From NCBI GenBank assembly GCA_023261805.1, contig JAGDXV010000012.1, positions 1 through 36,150 on the forward strand: DNA of 36,150 nucleotides, in the 5' to 3' direction. This DNA comes from Candidatus Parvarchaeota archaeon. GTDB lineage: Archaea > Nanobdellota > Nanobdellia > Parvarchaeales > Parvarchaeaceae. The notes under the pieces are model-generated. The model did not search any database and had not been told where the DNA came from. It worked only from the letters and a program-made list of their open reading frames with translations. Position numbers and translations under genes: made by a program. Of the stretch, positions 7,020 to 26,968 are shown one piece after another; position 1 is the first letter of the stretch; each line of letters starts with the position of its first letter.

Positions 7020-7361
7020 ATGAGAGCGCAGGAGTTGCCTACATCAACGATTTTACTCATAGTCTTAGCTATAATTGTCCTTGTTTTAGTTTTTATTTTT
7101 GTCCTGCATCCGGTCTCGCTGTTCAGTCTTCCCTCTCCAAGCTTAAACCTTACCTCATTCGTGCATAACTGCCAGATAGACTGCGATACAGCTACATCCA
7201 ACAATCCAGCCAATACAGCTTACTGCAAAGATACGATGATTTATCAAGGCAATCTAATACATTGCTATAACATAACTTCATCCGGAAACATTGGAAAAGG
7301 CTCCTGTACATATACAGCAAATAACGGGAGCTTGATCACAGCAAATTCTTCGACTTGCTAG
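7020..7361 (+). CDS. Small membrane-anchored/secreted Cys-containing protein with pilin-like N-terminus
   Basis: MRAQELPTSTILLIVLAIIVLVLVFIFVL hydrophobic N-terminus; extracellular-looking remainder with six cysteines and several NxS/T sequons. Confidence 0.75.
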   Translation: MRAQELPTSTILLIVLAIIVLVLVFIFVLHPVSLFSLPSPSLNLTSFVHNCQIDCDTATSNNPANTAYCKDTMIYQGNLIHCYNITSSGNIGKGSCTYTANNGSLITANSSTC

Positions 7362-9325: not shown

Positions 9326-11086
9326 ATGCAATACTTTCTTGTTGAGATATCATACGAAGCCGGAAATAAAGTTGGTGGTATATGGACCGTTCTAACATCA
9401 AAATCCAGGGTTATGAAAGCGAAATTCGGCGACAACTATTTGGCTATAGGTTTCTATAACCCGTCCCAAGCTGCCATAGAGATGATAGAAGAGGAACCAT
9501 CAGGGTACATACTCAATGCGATCAAGGATATGCAACTGCCGGGGATAAAGTTCCACTATGGAAGTTGGGCACAGGGAAACAATGTAAAGTTACTTCTGCT
9601 GGATACAAGCGAATTCAAACAGAATAATGTAAATCAGATAAAAGGTATGTTTTGGGACAAATTCAAGATAGATTCATTAAATGCACCAGAAGATTATAAT
9701 GAACCTCTTGCATGGTCATATGCGGTGGGCGCATTCGTTGAATCGCTTGCAAAATTCATAAATATGAAGATAGTTTGCCAGGTTCACGAATGGCTATCAG
9801 CAGGGGCAATACTGTACTTAAAGATGAAGAATTCGAGGATACCGACGGTGTTCACAATACATGCCACGGTTCTTGGTAGGGCGATCTCTTACGGAGGAAA
9901 CGACATTCAAGCCCTACTCAAACAAAAGAGCATAGACGACAAAGTTGCATACGACTATGGCGTACAAGCAAAACATCTGACTGAAAAAGCCGGCGCCTTC
10001 AATGCGACCGTGTTTACAGCAGTTAGCGAAACTGTTGCGGATGAAGCACAGGTCATGTTAGGAAAGCGTCCTGATGTGATTACAATAAATGGAATAGACA
10101 TCACTGGACTTCCATCGATGGATGATCTAGAAGCTATGAGAAAAACTGCACAGGATAAATTATACAACTTTTTGAACGCTTACTTTTTACCGTACTATGA
10201 TACCGAATGGATAATGTCGCCACTGATATTCACGAGTGGAAGGTACGAATTCTATGATAAAGGATTTGATTTATTTATAGATGCACTTGGAAGACTTGAC
10301 AAGATGTTGCCAGATGGAAAATACGTAATTGCCCTTATAGCCGTACCGACAGGTACGCTATCAACCAAAAATGAGGTGGCAGCAAACTATTTGACATATC
10401 TAAGCGTTAAGGCGCAACTAAGCAGAGACATTAAAGGATTTGAGGAAACCGCTTCAATGTTACCAACAGCAAACTATTCTTCCCTAGACAAAGCATACAA
10501 TAGAATAATCACCGATGCGAGACTTGTGATATCCGAGCTGAGAAGGCCAAGACCAACAAACCCTCCAATATGTCCATTCGTTTTATCTTATCCAGAAGAA
10601 AATGATCAGATATTATCTGCTCTCAAAAGAAATGGGCTTGTTAATTCAAAAGACAACAAGGTTAAAGTGATTTTCTATCCTAAATATCTGATGATCGGGG
10701 ACGAATTGTTGAATTTGACATACAATGAACTTCTTTCAATCTCAACAGCAGGGGTGTTTCTGTCTAAATATGAACCATTTGGATACACACCGCTTGAAGC
10801 CGCCGCTTACGGTTCCCTGAGCTTTACTACTGACCGTTCCGGCTTCGGAAAGTACCTTCAAACCTACAAATTCACTAACCAAGGCATCTTTATCGAAAGC
10901 CTCAGTGACGAGCGTGACAACGTAGTTAAGAAAGTGGCCTATGACATACTTCAAATAGTCTCCCTGGAGCAAGATGATATATTTGCACTGAGGACATCAG
11001 CGAGAAAAACCGCAGAGCTATTTGATTGGGAAGGTTTGATAACTAATTATCTTCAGGCATATGAGCTGGCACTGTCCCGTCCATAA
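9326..11086 (+). CDS. Glycogen(starch) synthase, eukaryote-type GT3 family
   Basis: EISYEAGNKVGGIWTVLTSKS, HEWLSAGAILYLKM, TIHATVLGRAISYGG, RYEFYDKGFDLFIDALGRL, RPRPTNPPICPF, VKVIFYPKYL, KYEPFGYTPLEAAAYG, SGFGKYL: collinear with animal/fungal GYS motifs. Confidence 0.9.
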   Translation: MQYFLVEISYEAGNKVGGIWTVLTSKSRVMKAKFGDNYLAIGFYNPSQAAIEMIEEEPSGYILNAIKDMQLPGIKFHYGSWAQGNNVKLLLLDTSEFKQNNVNQIKGMFWDKFKIDSLNAPEDYNEPLAWSYAVGAFVESLAKFINMKIVCQVHEWLSAGAILYLKMKNSRIPTVFTIHATVLGRAISYGGNDIQALLKQKSIDDKVAYDYGVQAKHLTEKAGAFNATVFTAVSETVADEAQVMLGKRPDVITINGIDITGLPSMDDLEAMRKTAQDKLYNFLNAYFLPYYDTEWIMSPLIFTSGRYEFYDKGFDLFIDALGRLDKMLPDGKYVIALIAVPTGTLSTKNEVAANYLTYLSVKAQLSRDIKGFEETASMLPTANYSSLDKAYNRIITDARLVISELRRPRPTNPPICPFVLSYPEENDQILSALKRNGLVNSKDNKVKVIFYPKYLMIGDELLNLTYNELLSISTAGVFLSKYEPFGYTPLEAAAYGSLSFTTDRSGFGKYLQTYKFTNQGIFIESLSDERDNVVKKVAYDILQIVSLEQDDIFALRTSARKTAELFDWEGLITNYLQAYELALSRP

Positions 11087-15409: not shown

Positions 15410-15989
15410 AAAACAACTATCGATAGAACTCAGCAAGATAAACGAAGTGGAACACAAAAATGTTTCCCTAGAGCAGTATCAAACAGATCTGAAGACAGCT
15501 GTAGACTTTCTATATTTTTCCTATGAAAATGGTGGTATATACAACAAAACAGTTGCTGATCTTGGATGCGGAAATGGCATTCTTGGTATAGGCGCAAAAC
15601 TTCTTGGGGCAAAGACTGTAGATTTTTATGATATAGACCAAAAGGCTGTCGATGTATGCAGAGAAAATCTCCTTAATTTAAAAATAAAATCAGATGTTTA
15701 CAGATCTGATTTTTTTGATATAACTAAAAATTATGACACAATTATATCCAATCCTCCTTTCGGAATCAGAACAAGCTTTGATCCTGTCCTTTTTATAGAA
15801 AAAATAAAGACACTCTCTTCAAACTTTTTCATAATTTTGCCAGAAAACAAGAGAACATTAGAGATATCAGAGAGACAGGGCACGCTTCTACATAAACTTG
15901 GAGACATTTCCATACCTGCTTTTGCGAGCGGCCACAAAAAAGAAATATTTAAAGTTCCAGTTGTAATTGTATATAGTATTAAAATATGA
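15396..15989 (+). CDS. METTL5-like/COG2263 SAM-dependent RNA methyltransferase
   Basis: VADLGCGNGILGIGAKLLGA, DIDQKAVDVCREN, NPPFGIRT. Confidence 0.85.
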   Translation: MIPNKKQLSIELSKINEVEHKNVSLEQYQTDLKTAVDFLYFSYENGGIYNKTVADLGCGNGILGIGAKLLGAKTVDFYDIDQKAVDVCRENLLNLKIKSDVYRSDFFDITKNYDTIISNPPFGIRTSFDPVLFIEKIKTLSSNFFIILPENKRTLEISERQGTLLHKLGDISIPAFASGHKKEIFKVPVVIVYSIKI

Positions 15990-18900
15990 TAAATGACAAA
16001 GCGCAGTCAATTCAGATATGGACATTGATAGTTGCGGTTATAGTCATAGCCTTGTTTTTAATTCTGACATATCTTTACAAAGCTGGTATCCTCTCTAACT
16101 TTAGCCTGGTCGGATCTATAATTAGTCAATTCATAACAGGTAACAAGGGAATATCAAAATTCGTGCAAGTACAGACATCATTCACACCATACAACTGTAG
16201 TTCAAGCGGCTGCATCCCCTTCAGTCAGCAATATAGCTCCTCATTCTGGTGGGCCGATTATGATGGGAATAACCAGTCAAATAGTTTGAACCAACCAATA
16301 AACTTCACAACAACTAGCGGAAACTTCTATCTTGTCATGTACCCTGCTGATGCAAATAACATGTTTTATTGCCCAACTCAAAGCATACAGAAATATCAAA
16401 CTGGTGAAAATTACAAGGTTAATTATGAAATCTGCGGAGTCACCTTCAGTGAAATTGGTCTGCCAAGCGGATATACCTGGATCGCAAGTTATAACAATAA
16501 AAATTACTCTTCGAATACTCCGTATATTCCTGTGATCGCAAACGCACCTGGTTACTATCATGTCTGGAATTTATCAAATACGTCCTTTAATCAGCAATTA
16601 ATGGAAGCTTGCACAACAACTTATAAAGCGGGAAGTAATGCTGTTGGAGTATTAGATTCAGCTGGATCAACAATAACTGTGCCATTCACATCCCAAACAA
16701 AATGCGAGAAGATAATTACTACCTTTACTGAAAGAGGATTACCACCGGGATATGAATGGCGTGTCAATTACACGTACTGGAATTCATCCTCAGGAAATAC
16801 AATAACTTTTTCCTCATTAAGTGGTCCGCATAACGTTAAAATCCCTGCTTTATCGAATTCTTCTAATAACTGCGTGAGTGTATACACGCCGCAAAATGTT
16901 CCGACAAGTGTACAGGCGGGAACACAGGTTTCAATAAACTTCAAAGAGGAGACATACTGCCTCACAACGTTTTACGAACAGAACCTTCCACCGGGATACA
17001 AATGGATGGTTAAATATGATAATCAGATGAATCAAACTGAAACCTCAGCCACTGGAAGCAAATTAACATTAAACGCTTCGGAGCCGTCCTCCTCGCTCAC
17101 AGCGAACGCATCAGTATCTGGCTTATACTGTGGAACATCCCCTTCCCAGACAGATGTCACAGTTCAGCCAGGTGGGACGTATACATTCAACTCATGGCTT
17201 TGTAACTCTACTTTCAACGAAACCGGTCTGCCGAGTGGAACAGAATGGAACATCACATATAACGGAATATACCAAACTTCAACTAGCCACATCATAAAAT
17301 TTGTTAACATGCCTTCTTCATCATCAAAACTTGAATTCACTGCTTATCCAATTACAGTATCGACCGGAACTACAAATGTAGCCACATTTTCAATAGTTGG
17401 CTATGGTGGACAGACGGGAGGAAATTCCGCCTCTTATAGCCTGCCATCGGGCGCCTCTCTGTACCTGTGCAATGGAGGGGACGGAAACGGCGCTTTATCC
17501 TCTTATTCCTGGTCTGCTGACACGACAACATTTTCATCGTATGCAAGCATTGGACATCAATCAGGCAATGTGTGCTCTGACTCTTCTTTATCTTCAGATA
17601 TAGCTGTTGGAGGAGCAGCGATAGATACGAACACTCAGTACTCATTACAAACCCAAACATTCAGTGGGAATTCGTTCTCATATACATATTCTGAAAGTCA
17701 AAGCGCAGATGTTATAATATCCATTTCATGTGGCTGGTATGAATGCAATTCAATTACAGTGCCAAGTGGATGTCAACAATTATTCTACCAAAATGGAGGA
17801 GACTACTATGAGACAACTTATATGGCAGTATGTTACAATCAGGGGGCCGGCTCATATAGATTAAGCGGCGGATTAAATGGAAATGGTTACGTCGCAGTTG
17901 GGGTATACTCATTTCCAATCTCAGCAAACACAATATCTAGTGCATATTACTATTATCCGAAGCCCTCTTCTGGTTACAATTACACCGGCCTAAACGAAAC
18001 AATCAATTATTCATTATCTGTAAAGCTCCCGCCAAATGTAGTATATTATGTTCCAATAACAATAACAAACAATCAAAACACTCCTACGCCATCCCCATTC
18101 CAGCAAGAGATATCTGTACCTTCATGGGTGATAAATGCATATGCCTCATCAAACATGCAAAACACAATCTTCTTTTATAAAAATGGACAGGTGATTCCTT
18201 CTTGGTTGGAAACATATTCCTATCCAAACAGCGCGACATACTGGGTCAAGTTAAGCAATAGCATACCTGCTGATTCATCTATAACAATATACATGGGCTT
18301 TGGATACACCTCCACTAATCTGTTTAATAATGTGAATGATGGAGAGGCGCCTCAATTATCGCCGGTGTATGGAGAATACAACGACATAGCTAATGTAATG
18401 AACAGCGGTTTAGAATATCAAATATATTATGATCCAAGCGGGGAATGCGACAGTCAAAATTATCAGAATCAGGTATATGCAGCTACATTAAATAATGGAG
18501 TAACAATAGAATCTTGCGCACCAATGTCCTCTTCAACAAATCCGTTTTATACAAACCTTGTAGGAAGCTCACAAGTTGTGAACGGGATGAACGAGAACAA
18601 TGTGATCTTTAACTATCAGGAAGACTATAAAAGTGGTGCTCCTTATCCAGATCCTCCAATTCCACCATTGGACACAACAAATTCCTGGATAATAAAGGCC
18701 ATAGGCTGGGCACAAGTCAACTCGCCAGTTACATTTTATGTAGGAACTGATGATGGAATTGCGCTTGGATACTCTACCTCTTCGTATTCTGGCAACGGCG
18801 CATACTGGCTTGGTGGAAGTTCAAATCCAAACAATATAATTTCCCAATGGCATGAACAAAGCTTCAGCGTGTTTTCAGGAGCAGAAAACACGATTGGTAC

Positions 18901-19744
18901 AGTTAGATTAGAAATGGATTATTATGAGGGACCCACACAGGCTTACACCGCTCTCTGGTCAAGTGCACCAGTTTATTATTATTCACCAACTGCCCCGCCA
19001 AATGGTGTTATGCCCTCTGTACAATTTGTTTATTCAGGCACTTTAACTACATTTACAGAGTCGGGTTTACCTTCAGGAGCGGGTTGGTGGGTTGATTATG
19101 ACGGTATCAATGAATCATCAACATCCACTTCAATATCTTTTAAAATTCCTCCTGGAACTTACTCTTTCTCAACAGGTGCATTTCAGGTTAGTAATAGCCC
19201 TACTTACACTCCGTCGCCGGCTTCAGGGAGCCTAGCAGCAGGAAACACCCAATCTATATCCTTCTCATCAGTTAACTACCCAGGAATACCTGCTTTTACT
19301 GCTTCCGGTAGCTGGGATGTGGACTCGACCAACACCCAAACCGATCCAGGAAACACAATAGTGCCTGATGGAAATTATGGTTATATAGAGACGAATGACC
19401 CTTGGACTGGACAGTGGGAAGAAGCACAATGGGAATGGACTTTTCCCTCTTCCTTAACTGGAACCTTTTATACTAAATGGTATGCCTATGATGCTTTAAA
19501 TGGCGGATGCCAGCCATTTGGAACTGATGTGACTCTCACGTGGGCGGCATCAAATGATGGTAGTACTTGGACTACTTTCTATACACACACGTTTACTTCC
19601 GCCGGCGGAGTAGGCTCCTCAACCTCTCCTGAGATCACAGACATCACCGGAACTTATAAGTACATAAGAGTTACACAGTACTCTAATACAGCAAATATGG
19701 CTTGCCCAATGATAACTTGGGTGGATGGGGTATGGGAAGATTAA
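15986..19744 (+). CDS. Giant N-terminally anchored surface protein with five 'FxExGLPxGxxWxVxY' repeats, DUF2341-like and PA14-like regions
   Basis: N-terminal hydrophobic helix (KAQSIQIWTLIVAVIVIALFLILTYL); five repeat units; DUF2341-like YYVPITITNNQ...SWLETYSYPNSATYWVKLSNSIPADSSITIYMGFG; PA14-like FYVGTDDGIALGY. Confidence 0.88.
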   Translation: MINDKAQSIQIWTLIVAVIVIALFLILTYLYKAGILSNFSLVGSIISQFITGNKGISKFVQVQTSFTPYNCSSSGCIPFSQQYSSSFWWADYDGNNQSNSLNQPINFTTTSGNFYLVMYPADANNMFYCPTQSIQKYQTGENYKVNYEICGVTFSEIGLPSGYTWIASYNNKNYSSNTPYIPVIANAPGYYHVWNLSNTSFNQQLMEACTTTYKAGSNAVGVLDSAGSTITVPFTSQTKCEKIITTFTERGLPPGYEWRVNYTYWNSSSGNTITFSSLSGPHNVKIPALSNSSNNCVSVYTPQNVPTSVQAGTQVSINFKEETYCLTTFYEQNLPPGYKWMVKYDNQMNQTETSATGSKLTLNASEPSSSLTANASVSGLYCGTSPSQTDVTVQPGGTYTFNSWLCNSTFNETGLPSGTEWNITYNGIYQTSTSHIIKFVNMPSSSSKLEFTAYPITVSTGTTNVATFSIVGYGGQTGGNSASYSLPSGASLYLCNGGDGNGALSSYSWSADTTTFSSYASIGHQSGNVCSDSSLSSDIAVGGAAIDTNTQYSLQTQTFSGNSFSYTYSESQSADVIISISCGWYECNSITVPSGCQQLFYQNGGDYYETTYMAVCYNQGAGSYRLSGGLNGNGYVAVGVYSFPISANTISSAYYYYPKPSSGYNYTGLNETINYSLSVKLPPNVVYYVPITITNNQNTPTPSPFQQEISVPSWVINAYASSNMQNTIFFYKNGQVIPSWLETYSYPNSATYWVKLSNSIPADSSITIYMGFGYTSTNLFNNVNDGEAPQLSPVYGEYNDIANVMNSGLEYQIYYDPSGECDSQNYQNQVYAATLNNGVTIESCAPMSSSTNPFYTNLVGSSQVVNGMNENNVIFNYQEDYKSGAPYPDPPIPPLDTTNSWIIKAIGWAQVNSPVTFYVGTDDGIALGYSTSSYSGNGAYWLGGSSNPNNIISQWHEQSFSVFSGAENTIGTVRLEMDYYEGPTQAYTALWSSAPVYYYSPTAPPNGVMPSVQFVYSGTLTTFTESGLPSGAGWWVDYDGINESSTSTSISFKIPPGTYSFSTGAFQVSNSPTYTPSPASGSLAAGNTQSISFSSVNYPGIPAFTASGSWDVDSTNTQTDPGNTIVPDGNYGYIETNDPWTGQWEEAQWEWTFPSSLTGTFYTKWYAYDALNGGCQPFGTDVTLTWAASNDGSTWTTFYTHTFTSAGGVGSSTSPEITDITGTYKYIRVTQYSNTANMACPMITWVDGVWED
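16440..19091 (+). repeat. Five degenerate protein-level repeats FxExGLPxGxxW within the surface protein
   Basis: FSEIGLPSGYTW (~16445), FTERGLPPGYEW (~16723), FYEQNLPPGYKW (~16970), FNETGLPSGTEW (~17214), FTESGLPSGAGW (~19055). Confidence 0.85.
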
Positions 19745-21970: not shown

Positions 21971-22342
21971 TCATTGACTGATTATTCCTGCAATCTCATC
22001 GGCAGCTTTCTTTGCTTCAAGGAGTATTAAACCATAGTTTGAACTTGGATCGAGCATTATTGAAAGAATTGCATTTTCACCAGCTTTTATTGCAACAACT
22101 CTGGTATCACTTGATTCTGCAATAACTCTTTCAAAAGATTTTGACCCTAATGATTTAAGCGCCGTCTCTGCAGATCCAACCATTGAAGCAAGCATCGCAG
22201 CAAATGTATTTTCATTGATTCCGCTTGGAATAAGTGAGACCATCGGAATACCATCGGCCGATATAATAGATGAAGCCTTAATTCCGCCGATCGTTCCTAA
22301 ACGCTCCAAAACTGCTTTTAATGTTTCGACCTTTGTACTCAT
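21971..22342 (-). CDS. Roadblock/LC7 domain protein
   Basis: 123 aa: LERLGTIGGIKASSIISADGIPMVSLIPSGINENTFAAMLASMVGSAETALKSLG, typical roadblock fold pattern. Confidence 0.88.
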   Translation of the reverse strand: MSTKVETLKAVLERLGTIGGIKASSIISADGIPMVSLIPSGINENTFAAMLASMVGSAETALKSLGSKSFERVIAESSDTRVVAIKAGENAILSIMLDPSSNYGLILLEAKKAADEIAGIISQ

Positions 22343-22373
22343 ATCAATTTTAAACTTCTTTTACTATTTAAAT

Positions 22374-23576
22374 TTATCTTAACTGCTCAAATAGTAAAGA
22401 CAGTGCTTTTTCCACCTCCTCTCTCTTTAACTGGGTTGGCTGATTCGGATCTATTCTGGACAAATCAACCGCTGTAGTCTGTGTTATCGGAGCGTCCTTT
22501 CCAAGATGCAATTTATCCTTTATCTCATCCAAAGACAACGCCCCTGGCAAATCAAATTTATTGGCGACGACGACTATTGGTAATCCATAAGCCTCTGTCT
22601 TCCTGAGCATCTCGATCGCCCTCGGAAAGCCTTCTGGTCTTGTAGCATCAACAACTAAAATAACACCTATTGCCTCACCACCTAATAGTTTAAGAAGCGG
22701 ATCAAAACGCTCCTGACCAGGAGTACCAAACATATCAGCTATATATCCCCTGAAATCTAGCGTCCCATGATCAAGGGCTATGGTTCCTCCTAATCTATCC
22801 ACACTGACTGCATTGGGACACGCTGAATGAATAAAGGAACTTTTCCCCGCGTCTGTAGGACCTGTGACAAGGATCTTTGGTATATATAACTTTATACCCC
22901 CAGGTTTCAAGGCTTTGAACAATGCGGAGGTCATCGCACGCTGTTCCTTTATCCAATCGCACTTTATAACTGCGAAATATTGACCAAAAATTACGCGCTT
23001 CTCAACACCTTTTATATCTATAACTGCATTCGCTCTGGTGAAAATGCTATTGACGCCGTTTCTGTCGTAATCCCACTCTGTGAACAGCAAAACACCGGTT
23101 CCTTTCTTTTGATTGATCTTTGATGAAATCAGATCAATAAGTTTAGCGGCAGTATCAAAATCGAACTGGTCGACTATTAATGACAATGAATCGACTACAA
23201 CCAAATCGTAGCCCTTCTCGATCTCATTTCCAACCTTTGAAAAGATCTCCTCCTTATCAGCAGGATTCTGAATAACAACAACATTTTCCGAGCCACTTTG
23301 CTGTATCCCCGTTATATTGCTGTACGCATCAAGTATTTTTAGGTCATCCGAAACTGTAAAATCGTATTCTTTCATCTCAGTAAGATAAGAGGAAGGAGAT
23401 GTACGATTAAGCAAAAGAAGAACCTTTTTCTTGTTCAAAAGATTGTTGTGAATTATCTGATAACCGAAGACTTCATTTCCAACCGCAGGGGAAGCGGAGA
23501 AAACCACAATCTTCTTATCCGGTAAGCCCCTCAAATCCTCATCCAATCTTTCAATCCCAAAAACCGGATCCGCCAT
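22374..23576 (-). CDS. Fusion: N-terminal KaiC/RecA-like domain (degenerate Walker A) plus C-terminal Ras/Arf-like small GTPase
   Basis: N-term: FSASPAVGNEVFGYQ in the Walker A position and Walker B-like DLVVVDSLS. C-term: GPTDAGKSS (G1), GGTI (G2), DMFGTPGQERF (G3), NKFD (G4). Confidence 0.88.
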   Translation of the reverse strand: MADPVFGIERLDEDLRGLPDKKIVVFSASPAVGNEVFGYQIIHNNLLNKKKVLLLLNRTSPSSYLTEMKEYDFTVSDDLKILDAYSNITGIQQSGSENVVVIQNPADKEEIFSKVGNEIEKGYDLVVVDSLSLIVDQFDFDTAAKLIDLISSKINQKKGTGVLLFTEWDYDRNGVNSIFTRANAVIDIKGVEKRVIFGQYFAVIKCDWIKEQRAMTSALFKALKPGGIKLYIPKILVTGPTDAGKSSFIHSACPNAVSVDRLGGTIALDHGTLDFRGYIADMFGTPGQERFDPLLKLLGGEAIGVILVVDATRPEGFPRAIEMLRKTEAYGLPIVVVANKFDLPGALSLDEIKDKLHLGKDAPITQTTAVDLSRIDPNQPTQLKREEVEKALSLLFEQLR

Positions 23577-23610
23577 AAAAATTACACATGCTCCTCAAAT
23601 TTAAAGGTTT

Positions 23611-24288
23611 TTACAGGGGAGACCACGATAACACCTCCTTTTCTGTCCCAGTCACTGTGAAATATCTCTTTGCATCGTCTCCAAGTTTGAGTTTGATTAT
23701 CGCATCCATCAATGATTTCGCTGTCTCGCTGACGTCTGGGGAATGCATGCTTTCGTCCAGAGAGAAGAAACCGGTTACACCGCTTAATTTCGATCTACCA
23801 CAGACAAACTGCAAGAATCTGAAAAGAGTAGCATTGTTATTGTACAGGAGCAGAGCCGATACAGAATCCATTATGTTTATCACCGTGTAGCCATCCTTGA
23901 CAAAATCACTATTTATCGTGGACATCGCTACAGATAACCCTGTCAAATCCAAAGGACCATTCAAAACTTTTATGTAAGGGGTATCCGATGTCTGTGCCAT
24001 TATGTTTCTGCTGAAATCATCTATCAGTTTAAAAGAAGAACCTAATGAGGAAGACACACTAGGAAAAGACTTTGTGATGCTTGATACCACTTCTTCCGCT
24101 GATTTAGAGATGCTGATATAAAGTACAGCTGCATTACCTTTCAATGCATTCGCCGCCAAGCTATAAAGAAACTGATCTTTTCCACTCTCTTTATCGCCGA
24201 GAACGAGATAGTTTTTCCTAGTGCTTAATCCGCCTGTCAGGCTATCAAATGATTGAAAACCTGTTAAAATGTTTGACATAATTATCAC
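23611..24288 (-). CDS. KaiC/RecA-superfamily ATPase-like protein with altered Walker A
   Basis: TGFQSFDSLTGGLSTRKNYLVLGDKESGKDQFLYSLAANAL (GKD in place of GK[ST]), TVINIMDSVSALL (Walker B-like). Start GTG 24288 or ATG 24279. Confidence 0.8.
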   Translation of the reverse strand: MIIMSNILTGFQSFDSLTGGLSTRKNYLVLGDKESGKDQFLYSLAANALKGNAAVLYISISKSAEEVVSSITKSFPSVSSSLGSSFKLIDDFSRNIMAQTSDTPYIKVLNGPLDLTGLSVAMSTINSDFVKDGYTVINIMDSVSALLLYNNNATLFRFLQFVCGRSKLSGVTGFFSLDESMHSPDVSETAKSLMDAIIKLKLGDDAKRYFTVTGTEKEVLSWSPL

Positions 24289-24905
24289 AAAATTTTAACT
24301 TTTATTGACTTTATACCGAGCATAACTCCATCTACAACTGGTGAAACATCAACAACTATTTCCCCCTCATTATCTTTCTGAAATGAAATATCCATCTTTG
24401 CACTGCTCTCGACGGAGATCGTTATTATTGGAAATAAATATGTAACTAGACTCTTGAAGAACGCCTTCGAATTTCCTTTCTTCACAATTATGTTGATATC
24501 ATCCCCTGTCCCTTCAGGCGTCTCCACGATCTTGAAAGCCTCAGTGTCGATGACTATATCTATAATTCTATCATGAGGAAGACCTAAAAGATCCTCTATA
24601 ATTTCATCTATATCCTCATTAGTTCCAAATCTTTTTGAAACATTCTTCTGCTGGTCTCCTTGTGTAAAATCTATCCTTAAATCAACATATTGGACAAAGT
24701 TCAGCCTAAGAAGTATATTGTATATGTCCTTTGCATAGATCCTTATTGGATGAACCGTCTTTATCTTAATGCTTCCATCTTCTGACCTCTCCATGCTTAT
24801 ACTGAGTTTCTTGTAATCGAGAAGGCTCTGAAGAGCTTTTAATTTTCCTGTGTGATCGTACAAGTTCTTTATATCCGCTGCAACATCAAAAGCACTAACA
24901 TCCAT
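24285..24905 (-). CDS. Hypothetical protein, first gene of the roadblock/GTPase cassette
   Basis: 206-aa ORF with ATG at 24905 and 4-bp overlap with the KaiC-like gene; no family recognised. Confidence 0.8.
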   Translation of the reverse strand: MDVSAFDVAADIKNLYDHTGKLKALQSLLDYKKLSISMERSEDGSIKIKTVHPIRIYAKDIYNILLRLNFVQYVDLRIDFTQGDQQKNVSKRFGTNEDIDEIIEDLLGLPHDRIIDIVIDTEAFKIVETPEGTGDDINIIVKKGNSKAFFKSLVTYLFPIITISVESSAKMDISFQKDNEGEIVVDVSPVVDGVMLGIKSIKVKIL

Positions 24906-25305: not shown

Positions 25306-26115
25306 TCAAAGCAGTTTTCTGGCTAGATCGCTTTTCATGCCAACGAATATTCCTATGTCATCAAAAGCATTCAGATCATCGTTCGGAACAAGATTATACG
25401 GTACCTGTATCCTTTCCCCACTTCGCGAAACAATCGCAGGGAATTGATACTCTGGTTTACCATTGTTATAAAGAACAATAGGAACGATTTCACCTGGGTT
25501 CACACGCGGAAAACGGCTTTTGGTGATGTCATCAACAACTTCCTGTGGGACAAAGCCATAATTTCCAAAACCGATAGAATAGTGGAGCTTATAATGAGAA
25601 CGAGTGGTAAACTTTCCTTTTATCGCATCCAAAATTGACTCTGGTTTGTATTTATCATTCAGCCCGTTCGTAAGATATCCAACTATCAGACCTCCTTTTA
25701 TCTTTATAAATTCTTCTGAATCTACAATAGCAAGATCCCTCTGCTTTGAATCTACCGGCCTGTACAGGGAGTCATTCAAATAAACAACACCATTTTGTAA
25801 ACCTAAATTCTTTGCTTGGTTATCTGGAATCGAAATAACAATAACAGGACCAAGAACCCTATAATAATCCTTTTCTTGATGTTCTATTCTTCTTATAATA
25901 TAAACTGCTTTATCTGCAAAGAGAGTCTTTCCACGGACGTATGCATAGCCTTCATCCACAAAGTCTTTGTAATCAACAGGAGTTCTGGAAAGTGAATGAG
26001 ACATCAGGTATTCGTTGTACAAATCATTATTATAACCATTCGTGACTAATCCTACAGCACGACTTCCCAAGTTATTTAAACCTGAAGATAACACGTCTTC
26101 TAACTTTCTAAGCAT
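25306..26115 (-). CDS. Hypothetical protein (ORFan candidate)
   Basis: 269-aa ORF preceded by SD-like AGGAGGTG; overlaps the upstream gene by 8 bp; no family recognised. Confidence 0.82.
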   Translation of the reverse strand: MLRKLEDVLSSGLNNLGSRAVGLVTNGYNNDLYNEYLMSHSLSRTPVDYKDFVDEGYAYVRGKTLFADKAVYIIRRIEHQEKDYYRVLGPVIVISIPDNQAKNLGLQNGVVYLNDSLYRPVDSKQRDLAIVDSEEFIKIKGGLIVGYLTNGLNDKYKPESILDAIKGKFTTRSHYKLHYSIGFGNYGFVPQEVVDDITKSRFPRVNPGEIVPIVLYNNGKPEYQFPAIVSRSGERIQVPYNLVPNDDLNAFDDIGIFVGMKSDLARKLL

Positions 26116-26968
26116 AAAGCACCTCCTCTAGCCTCTTCTTAGCACCCTCTCCTGACATCGCCGCTTCTATCCCCAAAACACGCTCCTCTGTGGTTGGGCC
26201 GACAAGCACATCAAGTCTCGGACCAAAAATTAATCCCTTTAAGAATTCGTACGCGCCTAAAACAAACCTTTTAGCTGCTGACATGTATTGAGGTACTGTT
26301 TCCATACCATGGAAAGAATTATAGTAATAATCACCTGTATTTCGCAACGCAGTTAAGGCACGAATTTGAAGATCATCCTCATAAACCATCGCATTAGAAG
26401 GATTTATCTCATTACGCTTGAAATTTCCCAGATGAAAGCCCTGTGAACGCGCACGATTATATATTTCAGCTAAAACATTATACATGTTTATCTTATAGTT
26501 CTTCCTCTCAAAGAATCTAAAACCGTATTTTGCCTTCAATATATACAAAGGTTTATTGTCTTTATTAAATACTATCCTTCCATTTTTCATGTACGGCTCT
26601 ATCTTATAATCTAAAAGGGGGAGACCAGCGACATTTGGAGGCACGAGAAGTGACAGTGCTTGAAGCCTATTAAATCTCCATTGCTCCAGCAGTTGCTCCT
26701 CTTCACCAGCGATCCTCGCCCTGCCTCTCTGTGTTTCCTGATAAACAGAAGCTATGGCCTCATTACTGTATATATCACCGATTCCCCTCTCTCCTTCTAA
26801 TTCTTTTTCTATCGAATCAACATAACTGTCTAGTCTTTCAGAGGTTCCGCCTGGACTGGGAAAATTTCCAGCCGCACGTCTCTGCTCTATTCTATCTGAT
26901 ATCTCTCCTATATCTGCTACTGCATCCGCAGGTGTTTTGAAAGTATTCGTCACAGTCTTCATGCTCAT
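26108..26968 (-). CDS. Hypothetical protein (ORFan candidate)
   Basis: 286-aa ORF; TATA-like TATTTATATTA about 22-25 nt upstream of ATG; no family recognised. Confidence 0.82.
   Translation of the reverse strand: MSMKTVTNTFKTPADAVADIGEISDRIEQRRAAGNFPSPGGTSERLDSYVDSIEKELEGERGIGDIYSNEAIASVYQETQRGRARIAGEEEQLLEQWRFNRLQALSLLVPPNVAGLPLLDYKIEPYMKNGRIVFNKDNKPLYILKAKYGFRFFERKNYKINMYNVLAEIYNRARSQGFHLGNFKRNEINPSNAMVYEDDLQIRALTALRNTGDYYYNSFHGMETVPQYMSAAKRFVLGAYEFLKGLIFGPRLDVLVGPTTEERVLGIEAAMSGEGAKKRLEEVLYA

Follow-up and report, generated by a model that had tools for sequence, protein, structure and literature searches.

To our knowledge, the roles of roadblock proteins and MglA-type small GTPases in archaea are largely unknown. 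In Myxococcus, MglA/SgmX recruits the motor ATPase PilB of the type IV pilus (T4P) (PMC11580455). The G3 motif of MglA groups 2-5 is GTPGQ, as against DxxGQ in the Ras superfamily, and a conserved DG pair is reported in their roadblock partners; for the archaeal MglA group 4, no conserved neighbours were reported and KaiC was not mentioned (PMC4316618). In archaea, the KaiC-like protein ArlH binds and regulates the ArlI motor (PMC8978795), and one survey describes the roadblock family arCOG02603 and KaiC arCOGs as frequent in T4P loci (PMC4858521). Here we focus on a locus in which relatives of MglA and ArlH are physically joined. It occupies positions 21971-24905 on the minus strand of a 36,150-nt stretch of DNA (the window; contig JAGDXV010000012.1, Candidatus Parvarchaeota archaeon), which is contig 18 of the 33 making up a 547-kb genome. 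Its four genes encode a 206-residue protein (U206), a KaiC-like protein (Kai2), a fusion of a KaiC-like domain to a small GTPase (KaiG) and a roadblock/LC7 protein.

KaiG (22374..23576, minus strand, like all cassette features below) has 400 amino acids (aa) and consists of a pseudo-KaiC half followed by an MglA-type GTPase domain. The KaiC-like half (aa 1-228; 22893..23576) matches PF06745 over aa 7-215, scoring 27.5 bits against a cut-off of 26.6, and its best profile matches are KaiC and archaeal KaiC-like structures. An AlphaFold2 model of KaiG (predicted local distance difference test (pLDDT) 88.3) matches KaiC, PH0284 and FlaH in a fold search. The Walker A segment of this half, FSASPAVGNEVF (23466..23501), is degenerate: the lysine is absent from every one of about 90 aligned fusions, which separates all copies from KaiC family members with a functional Walker A. 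Assignment of the KaiC half to ArlH was rejected on score, far under the NCBIfam cut-offs.

The GTPase domain (aa 233-400; 22377..22880) matches TIGR00231, the NCBIfam small_GTP model, over aa 232-376 (E=2.2e-14, over the cut-off) and the Arf/Ras families PF00025/PF00071. It carries a G1/P-loop, GPTDAGKSS (22836..22862), in which the G, K and S/T are conserved among fusions, a G3 motif, GTPGQ (22713..22727), that characterises MglA groups 2-5, and a G4 motif, NKFD (22551..22562). Most fusion copies have the forms GPxxAGKS/T, GTPGQERF and NKxD; the departures in G3 are GIPGQ or GLPGL in the L193 clade and GAPGDD in L029/L143. Next to the G2 threonine, where a second threonine in groups 2-5 replaces the arginine of group 1, most other archaea have GTT and Parvarchaeota have GGT. 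Arf/Ras, the family suggested by the top PDB matches, was rejected, the G3 motif being GTPGQ and not DxxGQ. Because the domain makes up the C-terminal half of a fusion of 400 aa and not a single-domain protein of <240 aa, we describe it as MglA-type and do not file KaiG as an MglA. Since the Walker-A lysine is never present while the G motifs persist, KaiG is a conserved pseudo-NTPase joined to a probably active GTPase. Separately, the KaiG homologue with the degenerate G3 GAPGDD (L029/L143, genome G053) is a candidate pseudo-GTPase and lies beside class III signal-peptide proteins.

Kai2 (23611..24288; 225 aa, GTG start) is a single-domain KaiC-like protein, with Pfam matches to DUF7504 (6e-11) and KaiC (6.8e-8; 32.6 bits against 26.6), and a homologue adjoins KaiG in most lineages. 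Its Walker-A-like loop, GDKESGKD (24175..24198), has S35, G36 and K37 invariant in the family, and across lineages D or E mostly stands where the phosphate-binding Ser/Thr is usual. The preliminary description of this stretch had called the cassette pseudo-KaiC; of the two KaiC-like proteins, the term clearly suits only the GTPase-fused one, which is dead at Walker A, Kai2 still having GK at this site in most lineages. The roadblock protein (21971..22342; 123 aa) is MglB-like. It matches PF03259 (Robl_LC7) at 1.9e-10, with 40.8 bits against a cut-off of 23, and its best profile matches are roadblock structures, including archaeal ones, CvnB5 and MglB. The G of the DG pair is present in 31/31 sequences and the D in 24/31. 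GTPase and roadblock genes are coupled in all 27 family loci and in most other loci. Judged from its motifs, above all the G3 GTPGQ, a GTPase-roadblock switch, as the preliminary description had proposed, is very likely.

The arrangement of these genes is strongly conserved. KaiG is present in 27/31 relatives of the same family, with 61-71% identity (48% in the most distant genus), and all 27 loci keep the order U206-Kai2-KaiG-roadblock; the named relatives with 62-65% identical KaiG are Candidatus Parvarchaeota or Nanoarchaeota metagenome-assembled genomes. Among 22 family genomes searched, 19 have KaiG and exactly one roadblock gene each, and neither gene was found in the other three (G002, G015 and G017), which are 74-91% complete, a level at which loss and missing assembly look alike. 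In the genome of the window, the cassette roadblock gene is likewise the sole one found. As all four genes stay together in the 27 family loci and the roadblock gene occurs only with KaiG, the conservation of the cassette is more than chance, and we regard the cassette as almost certainly a conserved functional module. The layout given in the preliminary description is borne out as well: all four open reading frames are intact, adjacent and placed as it had them, the 4-bp overlap (U206/Kai2) and the gaps of about 30 nt measure 4 bp, 34 nt (Kai2-KaiG) and 31 nt (KaiG-roadblock), the invariant order supports a single operon, and Pfam and NCBIfam return the domains assigned (Robl_LC7, KaiC, Arf/Ras and small_GTP). 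If Kai2 started instead at an ATG four codons further in, a 5-nt gap would take the place of the overlap, but several relatives combine an ATG start with a 4-bp overlap.

The operon is opened by U206 (24285..24905; 206 aa), which has no known domain. It is conserved in 21 family members at 23-52% identity, has no Pfam or NCBIfam match, and no relative outside the Parvarchaeota family was found in the phylum sample. Its AlphaFold2 model is confident (pLDDT 90.5, predicted template modelling score 0.84), and despite this no convincing PDB fold was found. Two candidates were rejected: a likeness to a roadblock subunit of Ragulator, with weak matches (probability 0.3-0.47) and TM-scores of at most about 0.3, and the CYTH/mRNA-triphosphatase fold, again with TM-scores of at most about 0.3. 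U206 might be a lineage-specific adaptor or input subunit, a role that is a guess.

A gene-neighbourhood search had been proposed as a check on the four-gene set. The neighbourhood is indeed conserved in relatives, and the core extends far outside DPANN; the natural unit is Kai2-KaiG-roadblock, an archaeal module, U206 having been found only in the family. Among the matches listed in a scan of the collection with two peptide patterns, the fusion is found in at least ANME-2, Methanoperedens, Methanosarcinaceae, Archaeoglobaceae, Methanobacteriaceae, Aenigmatarchaeota and Micrarchaeota. With a 36-row profile (E <= 1e-60) applied to sampled genomes of each phylum, it occurs in 48/298 genomes in the phylum of an Archaeoglobaceae locus, 34/246 in that of L057, 18/149 in that of a Methanobacteriaceae locus, 3/146 in that of a Micrarchaeota locus and 1/29 in that of L068. 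Its occurrence in DPANN is sporadic. Most loci have Kai2-like and roadblock genes beside KaiG, with the gene order varying among them. As a side observation, L195, L203, L208 and L216 each encode at least two consecutive proteins that match the KaiG profile, which suggests duplicated or stand-alone KaiC paralogues by the core.

What this module might act on is indicated by its neighbours. In L142, from the DPANN genome G195, the order is pilin-like genes-ATPase-TadC-TadC-KaiG-x-roadblock, with KaiG directly after a motor comprising a T4P ATPase (PF00437, 7.3e-30) and two TadC proteins (PF00482), preceded by small, N-terminally hydrophobic (pilin-like) genes. Four loci from the phylum of L057 (L193, L199, L204 and L205) read ATPase-TadC-TadC-roadblock-KaiG-Kai2, and two more from that phylum (L206 and L211) read roadblock-KaiG-Kai2 followed by one or more secreted or pilin-like genes, ATPase and TadC; in L197 the core lies beside a convergent T4P motor. 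A same-strand motor within 6 kb of KaiG is found in 6/24 loci of the phylum of L057, against about 0.7% expected by our estimate, in which a genome of about 2 Mb has some 3.4 TadC hits, equivalent to about 1.7 loci. The genomes G757 and G793 have two TadC hits each, both within the KaiG operon. L142, the L193 clade, L206 and L211 stand at separate places in the KaiG tree, where the deep nodes have mixed support and L206 and L211 sit on long branches; the motor linkage would have arisen independently at least twice, and probably more often. Because the core lies inside an ATPase-TadC operon in several archaeal lineages, the T4P is probably the output of the switch in the lineage of the window too.

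Small proteins with hydrophobic N-termini also recur near the core. A short pilin-like protein (of the form xxKAQGLPINTIILIAIGLLILVLFI) and a membrane-anchored protein lie directly upstream of U206 in 15/16 family loci outside the window, a class III signal protein lies beside KaiG/Kai2 in L143, and upstream of roadblock-KaiG in methanobacterial loci there are two such small proteins, hydrophobic at the N-terminus and without a Pfam name. The window itself encodes, about 15 kb from the operon, a 113-aa protein with a pilin-like hydrophobic N-terminus (7020-7361, plus strand) that is homologous to the gene preceding U206 in relatives (27-33%, tblastn E about 1e-8). At 15986-19744 (plus strand) it encodes a surface protein of 1252 aa, which has a pilin-like N-terminus and several segments of the repeated 'TFTESGLPSG' type, and fragments of this surface-protein family are found near the cassette in several relatives.

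Our best reading is a switch of the MglA/MglB type that is joined to an ArlH-like KaiC scaffold and acts on the T4P motor, which by analogy with both systems and from the gene contexts above we consider reasonably probable. The mechanism is proposed because KaiG physically joins relatives of MglA and ArlH. Like MglB with MglA, the roadblock dimer would bind the GTPase domain and set its GTP/GDP state, either by activating the GTPase or through nucleotide exchange. The dead KaiC half may assemble with Kai2 into one KaiC-type ring, a step we hold to be evenly balanced. This ring would dock on a PilB/ArlI-type motor ATPase as ArlH does on ArlI, and the GTP state would gate the engagement of ring and motor, hence filament assembly. 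The ring, its docking and the direction of control are inferences. V4R and protoglobin genes in Archaeoglobi, and roadblock genes interleaved with HAMP and substrate-binding proteins in L142, suggest that the roadblock side would receive the input. In the latter locus (L142:1431-6336, minus strand), three roadblock genes downstream of KaiG alternate with genes for HAMP proteins, for a substrate-binding protein and for a protein of the metallo-beta-lactamase fold, resembling a sensor array.

Several observations weigh against this reading. No motor gene lies beside the cassette in any of 18 Parvarchaeota loci, and no motor link is seen in the 32 loci read from the phylum of L038, where the neighbours are housekeeping or sensor genes. 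The L180-L190 clade of that phylum and a few other loci are without an adjacent roadblock. A T4P-type ATPase is present in nearly every relative, so co-occurrence is uninformative and was dropped as evidence. The pilin-like protein upstream of U206 was called by eye and fails the Pfam pilin and class III models, and in the window the upstream neighbour of the operon is eIF1A, not the pilin-like pair. The T4P-linked L193 clade is the one that departs from GTPGQ in G3, and the KaiC half is closer to general archaeal KaiC than to ArlH. The preliminary description had seen no archaellum or pilus motor gene; this is true of the window, but contig 9 of its genome carries a T4P motor operon, ATPase-TadC-TadC (G000:C9 = L150:5605-9073), in the same order as in G195. 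In a separate observation, the Kai2 that accompanies the L180-L190 KaiG-like proteins no longer has GK in its Walker A, and the neighbours of L184 include FeoB and a tetrapyrrole-methylase-family gene.

A rival explanation is a general signalling hub that would pass sensory input to differing outputs, with the T4P one only and the output in Parvarchaeota something else. Archaeoglobaceae and their relatives carry the V4R and protoglobin genes after the roadblock gene, L047 has a histidine kinase downstream, Kai2 of L199 is next to a receiver-domain gene, with similar genes in L204/L205, and the ANME/Methanosarcinales loci have a housekeeping context; the alternation of HAMP and substrate-binding proteins with extra roadblocks in L142 belongs here as well. 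However, T4P motor or pilin-like genes are the recurrent effector-like neighbour across separate lineages, the loci read show no further output gene shared between phyla, and we consider such a hub rather unlikely. The preliminary description had instead favoured a membrane or cell-polarity switch. A role in polarity, division or membrane organisation without a direct pilus link would suit a cassette that, in the window, has no motor neighbour, and MglA/MglB also set polarity; yet genes for division, the cytoskeleton or membrane remodelling were not seen to recur by the core, while T4P genes do recur there, and in several lineages the make-up of the operon indicates the pilus motor instead, which makes that role improbable. 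The two KaiC-like domains, and the fact that the best structural matches come from the KaiC half, could bring to mind a KaiC-type clock or autokinase relay with the GTPase secondary. With the Walker-A lysine missing from every fused KaiC half, acidic residues mostly replacing Ser/Thr in the Kai2 loop and no KaiA or KaiB gene recognised nearby, this is very improbable. Beyond the window, we put forward only tentatively that archaea share a widespread and dedicated type of switch for the pilus motor: an MglA-type GTPase joined to a dead KaiC subunit, with a GTP state and roadblock binding that may control a mixed KaiC ring on a T4P ATPase.

The remaining features of the window concern its surroundings. 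The eIF1A gene lies on the same strand, 64 nt upstream of the operon, and fibrillarin and Nop are convergent downstream. Two adjacent proteins of 269 and 286 aa (25306-26968, minus strand) have no Pfam match, and glycogen synthase (plus strand) and GH57 (minus strand) converge with a 44-nt overlap (11043-11086).

The module matters in that roadblock proteins and MglA-type GTPases are tied to KaiC-like proteins in a fixed arrangement for which a probable output, the T4P motor, can be named. It is present in complete methanobacterial genomes, which makes the T4P link testable. The ultra-small Parvarchaeota keep the operon in a genome of <1 Mb, and a controlled surface filament may bear on host attachment. 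If the tentatively proposed class of archaeal switches exists, small-GTPase control of type IV pili would be common to bacteria and archaea.

Within the literature searched, the parts are known and their combination is undescribed. The preliminary description knew of no such system, and no paper describing the fusion or the module was found in the open literature searched, outside which the main archaeal KaiC paper falls. Asgard roadblock and small GTPase proteins include archaeal roadblock homodimers related to MglB, and 7yh1 is a close profile match, but the GTPases are Rab/Rag-like and KaiC is unmentioned (PMC10933270). The archaeal KaiC and roadblock (arCOG02603) proteins of T4P loci belong to the same families as those here, whereas the passages found in that survey describe neither the GTPase fusion nor the three-gene module (PMC4858521). 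The actinobacterial conservons (CvnA-D) resemble the KaiG operon in being operons of about four genes with an MglB-type roadblock and a GTPGQ GTPase, and CvnB5 is among the best roadblock matches; unlike them, the KaiG operon has no histidine kinase (CvnA) and no recognised CvnC homologue, and has KaiC-like proteins instead. ArlH/FlaH is likewise a KaiC-like protein tied to a T4P-type motor ATPase, and the KaiC half matches its fold (4yds, TMt 0.76), whereas KaiG scores 25.7 against 215 and 31 against 194 bits (NCBIfam cut-offs), lacks the Walker-A lysine and carries a GTPase. The MglA/MglB module of Myxococcus and Thermus and MglA groups 2-5 (PMC4316618) share with KaiG the GTPGQ G3, intact G1 and G4 and one coupled roadblock with a DG pair, and MglA is a known T4P controller. 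In contrast to that lone GTPase of <240 aa, the GTPase of KaiG is the C-terminal half of a dead-KaiC fusion, usually with a second KaiC-like gene adjoining.

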